Source: a virus
DNA: 35,210 nucleotides
Virus record (IMG/VR): IMGVR_UViG_3300039309_000020
Span: 1-35,210 of that record
Strand: one strand, 5' to 3'
Below, piece after piece: positions 15 to 22,694 of the stretch. The notes under the pieces are model-generated. The model had not been told where the DNA came from. It was given only the letters and a program-made list of their open reading frames with translations, and made no database searches. Positions within the stretch are counted from its first letter, which is position 1; the number at the start of each line of letters is the position of its first letter. Position numbers and translations under genes: made by a program.

Positions 15-1034
15 ATGGCGTTCGACAAAGGCCCGTGGTGTTGGTACAGATTTCTACCAGACGGTACGCCTGTCGCAGTCGCAGGTGTTACAACCGTGTT
101 GAAAGTAATTTACAAACCAGCTCTCCTGCCTTGGGGAATCCGAGTCTGTTTAGAAAAGATGAAGGCGTTGCTCGTCGAAGGGCGCTACGTCATCACACCA
201 GAGATCGCAGAAACGTTTCCGTTGTATGAGGGATCACTCGATGAGATTATTCAGGCGGCACGCAAGACCGATTCAGAAATCCTCATCGAAGCTGGTGACG
301 TAGGAACGAGTGCACATGACTTCCTCGAAAAAATCGGCCAGACGTACATCCGGGGCGACGAAGCGAGACGCCTCGAACTGCTCGCACACTTTCCTGAGGA
401 TGACCGGGCTGCGTCTTGTGCAATCTCTGCGCTCGAATTCTTTCAGCGGCATCACATTCAATTCATCCACACAGAGAGGCCCGTTTATTCTAGAAGCCTC
501 GACTGTTGCGGGACGATGGACGCACTGGTCTGGGCTAGTTCTTGTGACGACCCCGCTTGTTGCCCGGAACCCTATGAACACAGCCTTACGCTTCTCGACT
601 ACAAAAGTTCGAACGGTGTCTATCCTAGCTACATGGCGCAGGCCGCTCTCTATGCGTATGCGTTCATGGAAGAGTTTCCTGACCAGCATATAGATCGTAG
701 GTTTGTGTTGAAACTGCCCAAGACAGAGGGTGCGTTTCAATCGTTTCACATGGCGGGAGACGAATTGTTTCGGCAAGACCTTGCGATTTACACTTTTGCG
801 TTAGGGCTATATCGAAGTATTCATATTGTCGAAGAACGAATGAGCGATCTGGCTGCGGAAGCGAAGGCGATTCGACAGGCTGCTGAGACAAAGGCGGACG
901 ACACTCGCCAAGCGATCAAGTGTGACAAGGCGGACGAGTACCAAGGCGTGAGAAAGAAAAAATCGTGCAATGGCAAGGAAACAATGTGCGAAGCCTGCAC
1001 GAAAATTTGGCTTGACAAGCACTCGACAGTCTGA
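15..1034 (+). CDS. PD-(D/E)XK (Cas4/RecB-like) nuclease, possibly 5' partial
   Basis: Predicted metal-dependent exonuclease of the PD-(D/E)XK superfamily, of the kind phages use in recombination and replication. Visible motifs are GTSAHDF near residue 97, E154, GTMD at 166-169, the DYK core at 195-197, and QAALY at 209-213. This is the order of the RecB/Cas4 nuclease motifs (H-E-D-DxK-QxxxY). A Cys-containing C-terminal tail follows a charged helix, but a Cas4-type Fe-S cluster is not clear. The frame stays open to the window edge and no ribosome binding site precedes the ATG, so the true start may lie upstream. A promoter for the next gene overlaps its 3' end. Confidence 0.8.
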   Translation: MAFDKGPWCWYRFLPDGTPVAVAGVTTVLKVIYKPALLPWGIRVCLEKMKALLVEGRYVITPEIAETFPLYEGSLDEIIQAARKTDSEILIEAGDVGTSAHDFLEKIGQTYIRGDEARRLELLAHFPEDDRAASCAISALEFFQRHHIQFIHTERPVYSRSLDCCGTMDALVWASSCDDPACCPEPYEHSLTLLDYKSSNGVYPSYMAQAALYAYAFMEEFPDQHIDRRFVLKLPKTEGAFQSFHMAGDELFRQDLAIYTFALGLYRSIHIVEERMSDLAAEAKAIRQAAETKADDTRQAIKCDKADEYQGVRKKKSCNGKETMCEACTKIWLDKHSTV

Positions 1035-1040
1035 TACGAT
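1012..1040 (+). promoter_or_regulatory. sigma70-like promoter P1 with CTTGACAAG box
   Basis: The -35 TTGACA (1012-1017) and -10 TACGAT (1035-1040) are separated by 17 bp. They sit over the 3' end of the nuclease gene, upstream of the alanine-repeat gene at 1063. The -35 lies inside the 9-mer CTTGACAAG that recurs at other promoters of this window. Confidence 0.75.
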
Positions 1041-1062
1041 TCTAATAGTACAGGAGAGTGAT

Positions 1063-1782
1063 ATGACAAAAATGACTTATTACAAAGTTCTCGCCGCAGA
1101 TGGGTGTTCACCTGTTCATGGTGGAACGGGGAAATGGTTTCTTCCTAAAGGAAAGCTTGTAGGAAAGTGGATGCCCGCAATCAAACCCGTGCTGTGCCAA
1201 CAAGGCTATCACTTTGTTACTCTCGATCAGTTACCACGATGGGTTGGGCCGACTCTTTACGAAATAGAAGTGCGAGGCGAAGTGCTTACCGCAGAAGACA
1301 AGAGTGTCGCAGAACAGGCCCGTCTGATTAAAAGAGTGGATACTTGGAATGAAAAAAATTTAAGGCTGTTCGCTGCGGATTGTGCGGAACACGTTTTAGG
1401 AATTTATGAAAAACAATATCCAAATGATGAACACCCTCGTAAATCCATTCAAGCCGCCCGTGATTTCGCAAATGGTCTAATTGACGCCGCTGCCGCCAAC
1501 GCCGCCTCCGCCTCCGCCTACGCCGCCTCCGCCTACGCCGCCTCCACCGCCGCCTACGCCGCCTCCACCGCCGCCAACGCCGCCTCCGCCTCCGCCTACG
1601 CCTACGCCGCCTACGCCTACGCCGCCTCCACCGCCGCCAACGCCGCCTCCGCCTCCGCCTACGCCTACGCCGCCTCCACCGCCGCCTACGCCGCCTCCGC
1701 CTCCGCCTACGCCGCCTCCGCCTCCGCCTACGAAACCCAATGGCAGGCAAATAGATTAAAATATTACTTGGAGGTAGAATAA
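1063..1782 (+). CDS. Phage protein with Ala/Ser/Tyr repeat domain
   Basis: Protein of 239 aa. The start is the ATG with AGGAG nine bases upstream, just after promoter P1. A longer in-frame ORF begins inside the previous gene but has no ribosome site. Residues 1-140 form a compact domain (KVLAADG, GKWFLPKG, GYHFVTLDQLPRW) seen in hypothetical phage proteins. Residues 142-223 consist only of Ala, Ser, Tyr, Thr and Asn in a repeating AAS-A-Y/N pattern, then a short tail ends in YYLEVE. Alanine-repeat tails after this kind of N-terminus occur in proteins sometimes labelled putative immunity proteins; that label comes from recall and is not shown here. Function unknown. The domain is probably helical, and its length may vary by slippage. 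Confidence 0.8.
   Translation: MTKMTYYKVLAADGCSPVHGGTGKWFLPKGKLVGKWMPAIKPVLCQQGYHFVTLDQLPRWVGPTLYEIEVRGEVLTAEDKSVAEQARLIKRVDTWNEKNLRLFAADCAEHVLGIYEKQYPNDEHPRKSIQAARDFANGLIDAAAANAASASAYAASAYAASTAAYAASTAANAASASAYAYAAYAYAASTAANAASASAYAYAASTAAYAASASAYAASASAYETQWQANRLKYYLEVE
1486..1731 (+). repeat. GCC/TCC/TAC trinucleotide repeat with a 63-bp higher-order period
   Basis: About 246 bp made almost only of GCC, TCC, ACC, TAC and AAC codons, so nearly every third base is C. A 54-bp unit at 1558-1611 is repeated exactly at 1621-1674. All three forward frames and some reverse frames stay open here because of composition; only the Ala/Ser/Tyr frame is continuous with a normal protein on both sides. Confidence 0.9.
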
Positions 1783-10741: not shown

Positions 10742-10926
10742 ACATGGAACAAATAATTCAAGAGTCAATAAACGCCTGTTATATAACAGAGTTCCTACGA
10801 CATGCATGGGAATATATCAAAGCACGTCGCCCTTATGAATCGATGACGTTAGCGATATTGAATGAAAAGATGTTCGATATCAGCGACATAGCCGATGGTG
10901 AAGAACGCAACCGAAGGATCAATTGA
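10738..10926 (+). CDS. Small phage protein of unknown function (62 aa)
   Basis: ATG overlaps the RNase H stop (ATGA). Helical, acidic at the C-terminus (DISDIADGEE). Its TGA overlaps the TTG start of the next gene. No family recognised. Confidence 0.6.
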   Translation: MNMEQIIQESINACYITEFLRHAWEYIKARRPYESMTLAILNEKMFDISDIADGEERNRRIN

Positions 10927-14405: not shown

Positions 14406-14468
14406 ATGAAGAATCCGACCCGCACCGAGGAGCGGCGGAACCGCTCCAAACTTCTGGAGGGTCTATGA
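14406..14468 (+). CDS. Possible 20-aa leader peptide
   Basis: ATG to TGA, 20 codons, basic (MKNPTRTEERRNRSK). Its stop overlaps the ATG of the secreted protein (ATGA), and the hairpin at 14429-14447 lies within it. It is placed where a translational leader would be. The ribosome site is weak (AGGCGG), so this is tentative. Confidence 0.35.
   Translation: MKNPTRTEERRNRSKLLEGL
14429..14447 (+). promoter_or_regulatory. 5'UTR hairpin GGAGCGG/CCGCTCC
   Basis: Perfect 7-bp GC-rich stem (14429-14435 with 14441-14447) and a 5-nt CGGAA loop, about 10 bp before the GGAGG of the next gene. No T-run follows, so it is not a normal terminator. It could shield or space the ribosome site. Confidence 0.5.
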
Positions 14469-14878
14469 AAACCATCACGTGGGTCGTACTCATCCTGGCA
14501 ATCCTCTGCTTCTGCTTCGGACCGCCGGTATTCCTCGCCCACGGGTCTACAACGAAAGCCAATAGACCGAACAGTCTGGGAATCTCGGAAATTTACACTA
14601 ACACCAATGAATATTTATTTGCCCAGCCGATTGATGGCCAGATTCTGGAATCTGAGGAAGACCGGGCAACGAACGTCCGTTTTAGTCCGTACAACACTCC
14701 CACCCTTTACGACGAATCTGTTCTATTCTGCGGACAGGTAGCCGACTTCTTTCAGGGCAAGACCGGACCGCTCGTCGTGACATATGACAAGATCGCACAT
14801 CGGAAATTCAACGGAGTGGCTTGTCATGACCTCATTTCTGTTTTTTCAGTACCTAACGAACCGACGGCACTGCCGTAG
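14465..14878 (+). CDS. Secreted or membrane-anchored phage protein (137 aa)
   Basis: N-terminal Lys followed by a strong hydrophobic stretch (residues 3-24, ITWVVLILAILCFCFGPP) indicates a signal peptide or anchor. A Cys near residue 15 is not in a clear lipobox. The rest is an extracytoplasmic domain with two further Cys (LFCGQVADFF, VACHDL) that could form a disulfide. Excellent ribosome site TGGAGGGTCT before the ATG, and promoter P2 upstream. Could be an exclusion or envelope protein. It ends in TAG, and the next gene continues in the same frame. Confidence 0.7.
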   Translation: MKTITWVVLILAILCFCFGPPVFLAHGSTTKANRPNSLGISEIYTNTNEYLFAQPIDGQILESEEDRATNVRFSPYNTPTLYDESVLFCGQVADFFQGKTGPLVVTYDKIAHRKFNGVACHDLISVFSVPNEPTALP

Positions 14879-14893
14879 AAAGAGGGTATCTAT

Positions 14894-15583
14894 ATTTCTG
14901 AAGACGCCCACAATTCGGACAACTACAACCCCGATATCGATCCAACGGTCTGCTGCATCTTTGATTGCGGCGATCCTTCGACGGTACTGTTAGACGGGAG
15001 ATGGTACTGCGATCAGCATGGCAGAGAGTACCAGAGTAGTAGAGAATTGACGTGTGCGGAGCCCGGATGCACGGAGACCGGGGTAATCAGTTCTAGCAAT
15101 ACGACTGCGAAGTTCTGCGTAAATCATGCGTGGAAGCAGGATCGAACGGTGGACGAGCACGGGCTAAATCACCCCGAGCCGAAGACCGAAGAGAATCTTG
15201 GTAAAGAGATTATCAAATACGTCTCCCCAGTGAAGAAATCGCTGGAAGATGTATTGACTCGTTGGCAAGCCCTTGCAGATTTTCAGGATTACATCGCAAA
15301 TGGGTTGGATGCGATAACTACGACGCTGGCGAAGTATGACAACCCTGCAAACATTCCTGCGGTGGATGCCGCCCGGAAGAAGGGGCTTGAGCACGCCTTG
15401 AAACTGATTGAAGTCTACCAGATGCAGATAGCGGGCTTCGAGCAAAAGAAGTGGGATTTGAACAACCTGCTCGACAAGTGCGTGCCTTCAAAGGATACAT
15501 TGGCCTTGATAAAGGCCGAGAAAGAACACGAAGCGGCGAGACAGAGAGTAGAGAAGAATTTGAAATCGGGGAAGAGTGAATGA
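14894..15583 (+). CDS. Tandem C-x4-C...C-x2-H zinc-finger protein with helical C-terminus; start codon unusual
   Basis: The frame is open from the codon after the TAG at 14876-14878 to 15583. Two copies of a zinc motif are visible: a first with CIFDC then YCDQH, a second with TCAEPGC then FCVNH. The first copy lies before the only normal start (TTG at 15047), so coding almost certainly begins earlier. There is no in-frame ATG, GTG or TTG there. AGAGGG followed by TATCTAT leads to an in-frame ATT at 14894, used here as a provisional start (229 aa). Alternatives are amber readthrough from the secreted-protein gene or an assembly error. The C-terminal 150 residues are helical with coiled-coil character. 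Confidence 0.6.
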   Translation: MSEDAHNSDNYNPDIDPTVCCIFDCGDPSTVLLDGRWYCDQHGREYQSSRELTCAEPGCTETGVISSSNTTAKFCVNHAWKQDRTVDEHGLNHPEPKTEENLGKEIIKYVSPVKKSLEDVLTRWQALADFQDYIANGLDAITTTLAKYDNPANIPAVDAARKKGLEHALKLIEVYQMQIAGFEQKKWDLNNLLDKCVPSKDTLALIKAEKEHEAARQRVEKNLKSGKSE

Positions 15584-16098
15584 AGACCAATCGAGAGATC
15601 GGGCTCGCTAAACGCCGTGCATTGCGGATCATCCGTAAGGTCCAGCCAAAAGTTGTTATCCAACTGGAAGCCACTGGATTGAAACTACGGGAGATCAAGA
15701 TACGGACTCGAAAAGGCATGAAAGGTAATGGTGCCTTCCGGCGTGCCTATGAGATCGTTGGCACGGGATTGGTCGTCAAGTTCCCACGCCCGGAATACAG
15801 TCGCGGCGTCGGGTGGGTGAATGCCGAACACACGAGAGACGAAGTCAAGAAGATTCGTGCCCTTTCGCAGTACTGTAGCCTTCGCCCGCACATGCCACCC
15901 GTGTACTATTACAACGGGCGAGACGGCGTAATGGTCACCGATTATTATCCGTTCGTTTGTCCAGACAAGGCGAAGAACGTCATCCTGTCGGACGTGATCC
16001 GTGAATTGACTGGCGTCCATCTGGACGATATCATGGGCGACAATGTCCGGTCGAAGGGGAAGGGTGGTAACCCGATTTTTTGCGATTGCGGGTATTGA
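15580..16098 (+). CDS. Miniature protein-kinase-fold protein (172 aa)
   Basis: The sequence carries kinase-like landmarks in order: a Gly-rich segment KGMKGNGAFRRAY near 46-57, K67 in GLVVKFPR (ATP lysine), an E88-containing helix, a catalytic-loop-like HLDDIMGDN (H147, D150, N155; D-x4-N spacing), and PIFCDCG with D169 in place of DFG. The protein stops two residues later, so nearly the whole C-lobe after the metal-binding Asp is missing. Start ATG overlaps the previous stop (ATGA). It could be a small active kinase, a phosphotransferase relative or a decoy. The fold call rests on motif spacing only. Confidence 0.6.
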   Translation: MKTNREIGLAKRRALRIIRKVQPKVVIQLEATGLKLREIKIRTRKGMKGNGAFRRAYEIVGTGLVVKFPRPEYSRGVGWVNAEHTRDEVKKIRALSQYCSLRPHMPPVYYYNGRDGVMVTDYYPFVCPDKAKNVILSDVIRELTGVHLDDIMGDNVRSKGKGGNPIFCDCGY

Positions 16099-16247: not shown

Positions 16248-16262
16248 ATATTGTTAGGTGAA

Positions 16263-16364
16263 GTGGCACGTCGAAACAAAATCGAGCATCAGAACGAGCC
16301 GAAATCCAAATGTGTCTGGGAGGATTTATGTCACCATTCATCGAAGAACGGTTGCCCAAGATAA
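16263..16364 (+). CDS. Possible small ORF (33 aa, GTG start)
   Basis: GTG preceded by TTAGGTGA, 33 codons, basic and Cys-containing. It overlaps the next gene in another frame. Weak support beyond the ribosome-site-like sequence. Confidence 0.25.
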   Translation: MARRNKIEHQNEPKSKCVWEDLCHHSSKNGCPR

Positions 16365-21673: not shown

Positions 21674-21991
21674 CTAGACTATCCTCGTTCCGTTTACAAG
21701 TACACCCAGATGATCTCCTGCGAGAATAAAATGATTGTTCACGAGGATCAGAGCGTCTTCACTGACGGGATTCCCGTTTACGTATATCGCATCTAGTCTT
21801 CCTCCAGAGGGAAGCCATTCAATATCCCCGTTTGCCCCCACAAAAGTTAAAACGGATTGATCTGCGGGCGGTTCAGTTGTAACTGGGATGTTCTGAATGC
21901 CCTGTACGAGTACCGTTGTAGCACCCGATTCCGCAGAGATATCTCCTCTCAATGGGAATAGGCTGGAAGGAAAAGTTTCAGAATTTGCCAA
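21674..21991 (-). CDS. Small virion-like protein (105 aa)
   Basis: Beta-rich with GATTVLVQGIQNIPV and NPVSEDALILVNNH. It sits between the HNH gene (14-bp overlap) and fibre D. Probably a tail or fibre-attachment protein; no family recognised. Confidence 0.55.
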   Translation of the reverse strand: MANSETFPSSLFPLRGDISAESGATTVLVQGIQNIPVTTEPPADQSVLTFVGANGDIEWLPSGGRLDAIYVNGNPVSEDALILVNNHFILAGDHLGVLVNGTRIV

Positions 21992-22694
21992 GGGGATTAT
22001 TCTCCATATGTTTAGAGACCTGTTTTATATGTTCTACAAAGGCGTTAACACCTAATGCAGACTTCATATAATTACAAAGATCACAACACGCACGACAATT
22101 GAAGGGCTCATATCCAATCGAATTGTCAAGCCTATCAATACCCATCCCACTTGCTTCTTGAGGAGATCGACCACAGTATCTACAAGATTGATAGATGAGG
22201 GTCTTGAATACATCAAGAGAGAGTGAAAAAGTTAACTCTCGTTTCGTGGCATCTTTTTGGTATCTGTTATAGACTAGATTAGGTCGGCATATGGCGCAAC
22301 GTTGAATGATATTGTTATGCTCACAAACTTGCGATCCCTTACAATCTTTACATACGTGTCTTTGGCGACCATGTCCGCAGATGCTTACCCCGCCGATGCC
22401 CACAGCTTTGCACTCTTTGCAACGCTGTCGATGATGATTGTGCTCACAAATCGCAGAACCCTTACAAAGTTTGCATTGCTCCTTTTGACGACTATGTTCG
22501 CAAATGCCTTTACCGCCACATTCTTTACAGGCATACCTTCTGCGATTATGTTCGCATATCCCTGCGCCTTTACACAATTTACAATAATGATGATCGACCC
22601 CATGCTCACAGATTTGTGATCCACCAGTTCCTAATTTTTTACAAATTTTACAATAGGATCTTCTAGGACCATGTTCACACGGCTTGTTTGCCAT
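21978..22694 (-). CDS. HNH endonuclease with seven tandem Cys-His repeats
   Basis: Residues 6-135 contain seven copies of a C-E/G-H-x6-C-K-x-C unit (CEHNRRRYACKECGG type). Each copy has three Cys and one His, enough for one zinc. The C-terminal 80 residues form an HNH nuclease (CRYCGR, GIDRLDNSIGYEP, CCDLCNYMKS). The repeats could read DNA modularly. It interrupts a run of virion genes and is A/T-richer than they are, so a homing insertion is likely. Its ribosome site GAAAGGCTGT matches that of neighbouring virion genes. Confidence 0.85.
   Translation of the reverse strand: MANKPCEHGPRRSYCKICKKLGTGGSQICEHGVDHHYCKLCKGAGICEHNRRRYACKECGGKGICEHSRQKEQCKLCKGSAICEHNHHRQRCKECKAVGIGGVSICGHGRQRHVCKDCKGSQVCEHNNIIQRCAICRPNLVYNRYQKDATKRELTFSLSLDVFKTLIYQSCRYCGRSPQEASGMGIDRLDNSIGYEPFNCRACCDLCNYMKSALGVNAFVEHIKQVSKHMENNPLGKF

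Follow-up and report, generated by a model that had tools for sequence, protein, structure and literature searches.

A zinc-motif gene in a metagenome-derived phage record probably starts at an AUU codon

Translation of otherwise ordinary genes can begin at AUU, an uncommon start for which infC, pcnB and cvfC1 provide precedents. The pcnB gene of Escherichia coli reportedly has an AUU start (Binns and Masters 2002, as cited in PMC13009471). The infC gene of Escherichia coli starts at ATT, and IF3 discriminates against this codon, providing autoregulation (PMC5472188). In Staphylococcus aureus, cvfC1 starts at AUU behind an extended Shine-Dalgarno (SD) sequence and gives about 10% of the yield obtained with AUG; its AUU is conserved among staphylococci and was demonstrated by ribosome profiling and reporters (PMC13009471). 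Analysis of a 35,210-base virus record (here the window, to the whole of which all positions refer) pointed to a phage gene of the same kind. Its ATT, like the AUU of cvfC1, is accompanied by a strong SD-like match and heads the gene for a small protein that may contain a zinc finger, and, as with infC and pcnB, the gene is otherwise ordinary. Whereas the cvfC1 AUU is conserved and demonstrated, the ATT of the window is present in one record, its two relatives having ATG. IF3-mediated autoregulation, as in infC, would be a conjecture for the window gene.

The open reading frame at 14465-14878 (137 aa) is closed by a TAG, after which the same frame is open from 14879 to a TGA at 15581-15583. 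The codons following the TAG are AAA GAG GGT ATC TAT ATT TCT GAA GAC. The sequence-only reading had described this frame as open through a complete C-x4-C...C-x2-H motif, with no ATG, GTG or TTG ahead of it and a similar motif near 15050. Each of these points was confirmed: the earliest canonical codon in frame is the TTG at 15047, none occurs before the first motif, and the second motif follows as C-x4-C-x15-C-x2-H. Features of the locus are collected in Table 1.

Table 1. Positions of genes, motifs and translation signals at the zinc-motif locus of the window
Feature	Position	Strand	Remarks
Upstream gene, hydrophobic N-terminus	14465..14878	+	137 aa, TAG-terminated
TAG stop	14876..14878	+	in frame with zinc-motif gene; orthologous to relatives' TGA
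Shine-Dalgarno-like AAAGAGGG	14879..14886	+	anti-SD duplex -10.6 kcal/mol
ATT, proposed start codon	14894..14896	+	aligns with ATG of both relatives
Two-motif Cys/His gene	14894..15583	+	229 aa counted from ATT
Motif 1, C-x4-C-x13-C-x2-H	14951..15019	+	invariant residues; pattern of purifying selection
TTG, first canonical start in frame	15047..15049	+	rejected as main start
Motif 2, C-x4-C-x15-C-x2-H	15053..15127	+	weak resemblance to EsV-1-7 motif
Following gene	15580..16098	+	ATG overlaps TGA of zinc-motif gene (ATGA)

Scans of viral contigs recovered two contigs carrying both the upstream gene and the zinc-motif gene, IMGVR_UViG_3300044801_000135 (L002/L004) and IMGVR_UViG_3300035490_000043 (L003/L005). 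The zinc-motif genes of these relatives begin ATG-(AGC/TCC)-GAA-GAT, and the window reads ATT-TCT-GAA-GAC at the same position. The corresponding N-termini are MSEDA-DYNPDIDP in L002, MSEDCHPSDNNPDIDP in L003 and, counted from the ATT, ISEDAHNSDNYNPDIDP in the window. The ATT therefore stands opposite the ATG of both relatives, with no canonical codon between the TAG and motif 1, although the codon itself is not conserved, being ATT in one record only. An ATT start after AGAGGG, one of the options raised by the sequence-only reading, is well supported by this alignment and by the strong SD-like match. Homologues starting at 15047 without the first motif, the outcome that would have counted against a coded first motif, did not occur in the two relatives. 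The DNA preceding the start was wholly different between the window and the relatives, so that a single base change and a deletion junction replacing the old SD and ATG are indistinguishable. Further scans of viral contigs with the zinc-motif gene, the upstream gene, alignments of each, and the downstream gene returned the same two contigs, and one scan of genome contigs returned no relatives. Phage records gave no protein match, and searches with two DNA patterns of the start region were also negative.

The upstream protein of the window was 81% identical to that of L004 (on the same contig as L002) and 77% identical to that of L003, and all three proteins end in Leu-Pro followed by a stop. 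On this basis the TAG of the window is the orthologous stop. Comparison of the stop region in related phages, which had been proposed as a check, found a TGA directly after the conserved Leu-Pro in both contigs and a separate zinc-motif gene beyond it, with its ATG opposite the ATT. Another gene lies between the two in each case. In L002, the upstream TGA is followed by a 38-aa hydrophobic ORF (L002:4329-4448) whose own TGA overlaps the ATG of the zinc-motif gene. In L003, the intervening gene encodes a recombination endonuclease VII (L003:4586-5035; Pfam PF02945, E 2.8e-16) and overlaps the zinc-motif gene start. The window has no gene there. Because the content of the interval differs in this way (38-aa ORF, endonuclease VII or nothing), it represents a variable cassette site. 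Read in another frame, positions 14866-14898 of the window (frame of 14872) give the junction TAVERGYLYF-stop, similar to RAVEYLRFW near the C-terminus of the L003 endonuclease VII. This junction may be what is left of an endonuclease-VII copy since deleted, the similarity being too short to tell from chance. The upstream protein had no match above cut-off in Pfam or PHROG. One weak DNA match, to the UvsX gene of a Tunturiibacter phage, hints at a host in the Acidobacteriota.

Substitution patterns across 14897-15046, ahead of the TTG, were consistent with a translated sequence. Compared with L002, the window differed at 22.5 of 26 synonymous sites, with dN 0.14; against L003, dN was 0.26 and synonymous sites were saturated. 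Over motif 1, within 35 codons aligned without gaps, differences fell mainly at third codon positions (4/4/18 by position for L002 and 4/5/20 for L003). Window-specific changes comprised 13 synonymous and 8 nonsynonymous, and so few of the latter would be expected with a binomial P of about 4e-4, assuming a neutral nonsynonymous share of 75%. Residues C20, C25, C39 and H42 of the first motif, and C54, C59, C75 and H78 of the second, were invariant in an alignment of the three orthologues. These data indicate that purifying selection acts on the first motif, including in the changes unique to the lineage of the window. The earlier claim that this motif is truly coded is thus upheld, both by the selection pattern and by ligand-type residues that are invariant in two relatives. 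Since the window-specific changes are mostly synonymous, the lineage kept the zinc-motif protein after its split from the relatives; this signal spans the whole time since divergence and would also be compatible with a very recent loss.

The SD-like sequence is separated from the ATT by a 7-nt spacer. A duplex as strong as that predicted here occurred at 0.6% of sampled window positions. Values for the ATG starts of the relatives were -9.5 and -9.3 kcal/mol, and that for TTG 15047 was -2.8 kcal/mol, all calculated with the standard bacterial anti-SD, which may not be that of the host. Predicted accessibility at the ATT was similar to that at other starts. The TAG precedes the ATT by 15 nt, and coupling of zinc-motif gene translation to the upstream gene is possible. 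Two other codons were considered as starts. The TTG at 15047 was rejected as the main start: the relatives do not share it, its SD is weak and motif 1 would be lost. The ATC at 14888 was rejected because the SD is too close and the codon is off the orthologous position.

Given where the orthologous genes start, the constraint on the coding sequence and the strong SD-like match, we favour reading the zinc-motif gene as a normal phage gene in its own right that initiates at AUU, at a probability of roughly 0.6. In the lineage of the window, the orthologous ATG would have become ATT through a single base change, or because a small deletion in the variable interval left its junction at this point. 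Initiator tRNA would start at the AUU with the aid of the strong SD-like sequence upstream, possibly helped through coupling by ribosomes terminating at the TAG, and the yield of zinc-motif protein would be lower than with AUG. It is improbable that, beyond this, the AUU has been fixed and selected in the lineage, such that the protein is kept low and its synthesis depends on host IF3 level and upstream translation, in place of the intervening-gene coupling of the relatives.

The pattern of starts in this phage does not favour AUU: among the genes whose starts can be compared with orthologues, this one alone is non-canonical. Comparison with L002 and L003 showed canonical codons at the orthologous starts at 10923, 11278, 11688, 12799, 13148, 14106, 14465 and 15580. 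The ATT is thus the exception, and a consensus or assembly error, akin to the sequencing error that the sequence-only reading had also suggested, with a canonical codon at 14894 and an entirely normal gene, has to be weighed seriously. One base would be enough, both relatives have ATG, and the ATT comes from a single metagenome-derived record. However, window genes with good orthologues in L002 and L003 are intact, with no sign of poor consensus there, and the sequence before the ATT is wholly unlike that of the relatives, indicating that the region did change. We consider such an error the leading competitor, at something like one chance in five.

Loss of the start codon, leaving the gene expressed partly from TTG 15047 without motif 1, or null, is less probable again. 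It would agree with the presence of ATT in the window record only and with the position of the TTG as the first canonical start in frame, but this TTG would discard an invariant motif from an unconserved position with a weak SD, and in the stretch containing the first motif, changes unique to the window still show signs of constraint. Amber readthrough fusing the zinc-motif protein to the product of the upstream gene, a further option of the sequence-only reading, is very improbable, for although both genes share one frame that the TAG alone interrupts, the relatives have neither a fused arrangement nor a single in-frame stop between the genes, which have a TGA and a further gene between them and, in L002, occupy different frames; in the window, TAG ends 16 of the 47 genes in the working gene list, ARAGORN found no tRNA gene and hence no suppressor tRNA, other tandem genes also abut in register, and the SD-like sequence and orthologous start position both come after the stop.

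The paired and conserved Cys/His ligand sets suggest that the product of the zinc-motif gene is probably a zinc-binding protein. No Pfam family was matched above cut-off, and a PDB sequence search returned nothing meaningful. PF19114, the EsV-1-7 cysteine-rich motif, was the top-scoring Pfam model for each of the three orthologues, at E about 0.05-0.08 and 13.3-13.8 bits (gathering cut-off 25 bits). The EsV-1-7 family is found in brown algae, other eukaryotes and some viruses (PMC7457493). The model matches motif 2 of the window gene, but just this one of the two motifs, and below cut-off, so that kinship with EsV-1-7 would be a lead only. The C-terminal half was predicted to be mostly helical in a low-confidence AlphaFold2 model (mean pLDDT 41). 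A role in binding nucleic acid or protein would be a guess.

A gene finder limited to ATG, GTG and TTG misses non-canonical starts; here it would begin the gene at 15047 and drop one of the two conserved motifs of metal-binding type, whereas comparison of relatives recovers the true start. A limited literature search found no phage gene among natural AUU starts; if the ATT is real, a phage gene joins that short list.

Other features of the window were noted. A gene at 21978-22694 (minus strand) contains numerous CEH...CK-x-C repeats, has an endonuclease-like appearance towards its C-terminus, and matched no Pfam family above cut-off. A low-complexity repeat at about 1480-1760, within 970-1782 (plus strand), encodes Ala-Tyr/Ala-Ser runs, and long proline- or arginine-rich ORFs are open there in other frames. 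A possible second non-canonical start near 16262 was considered and dismissed, as there is an ATG shortly downstream, preceded by GGGAGGATTT. The ATG at 16310 has a weak SD, and an ATG a few codons on (16310-16340) follows GGGAGGATTT; this later ATG is probably where the ORF assigned to 16310 begins.
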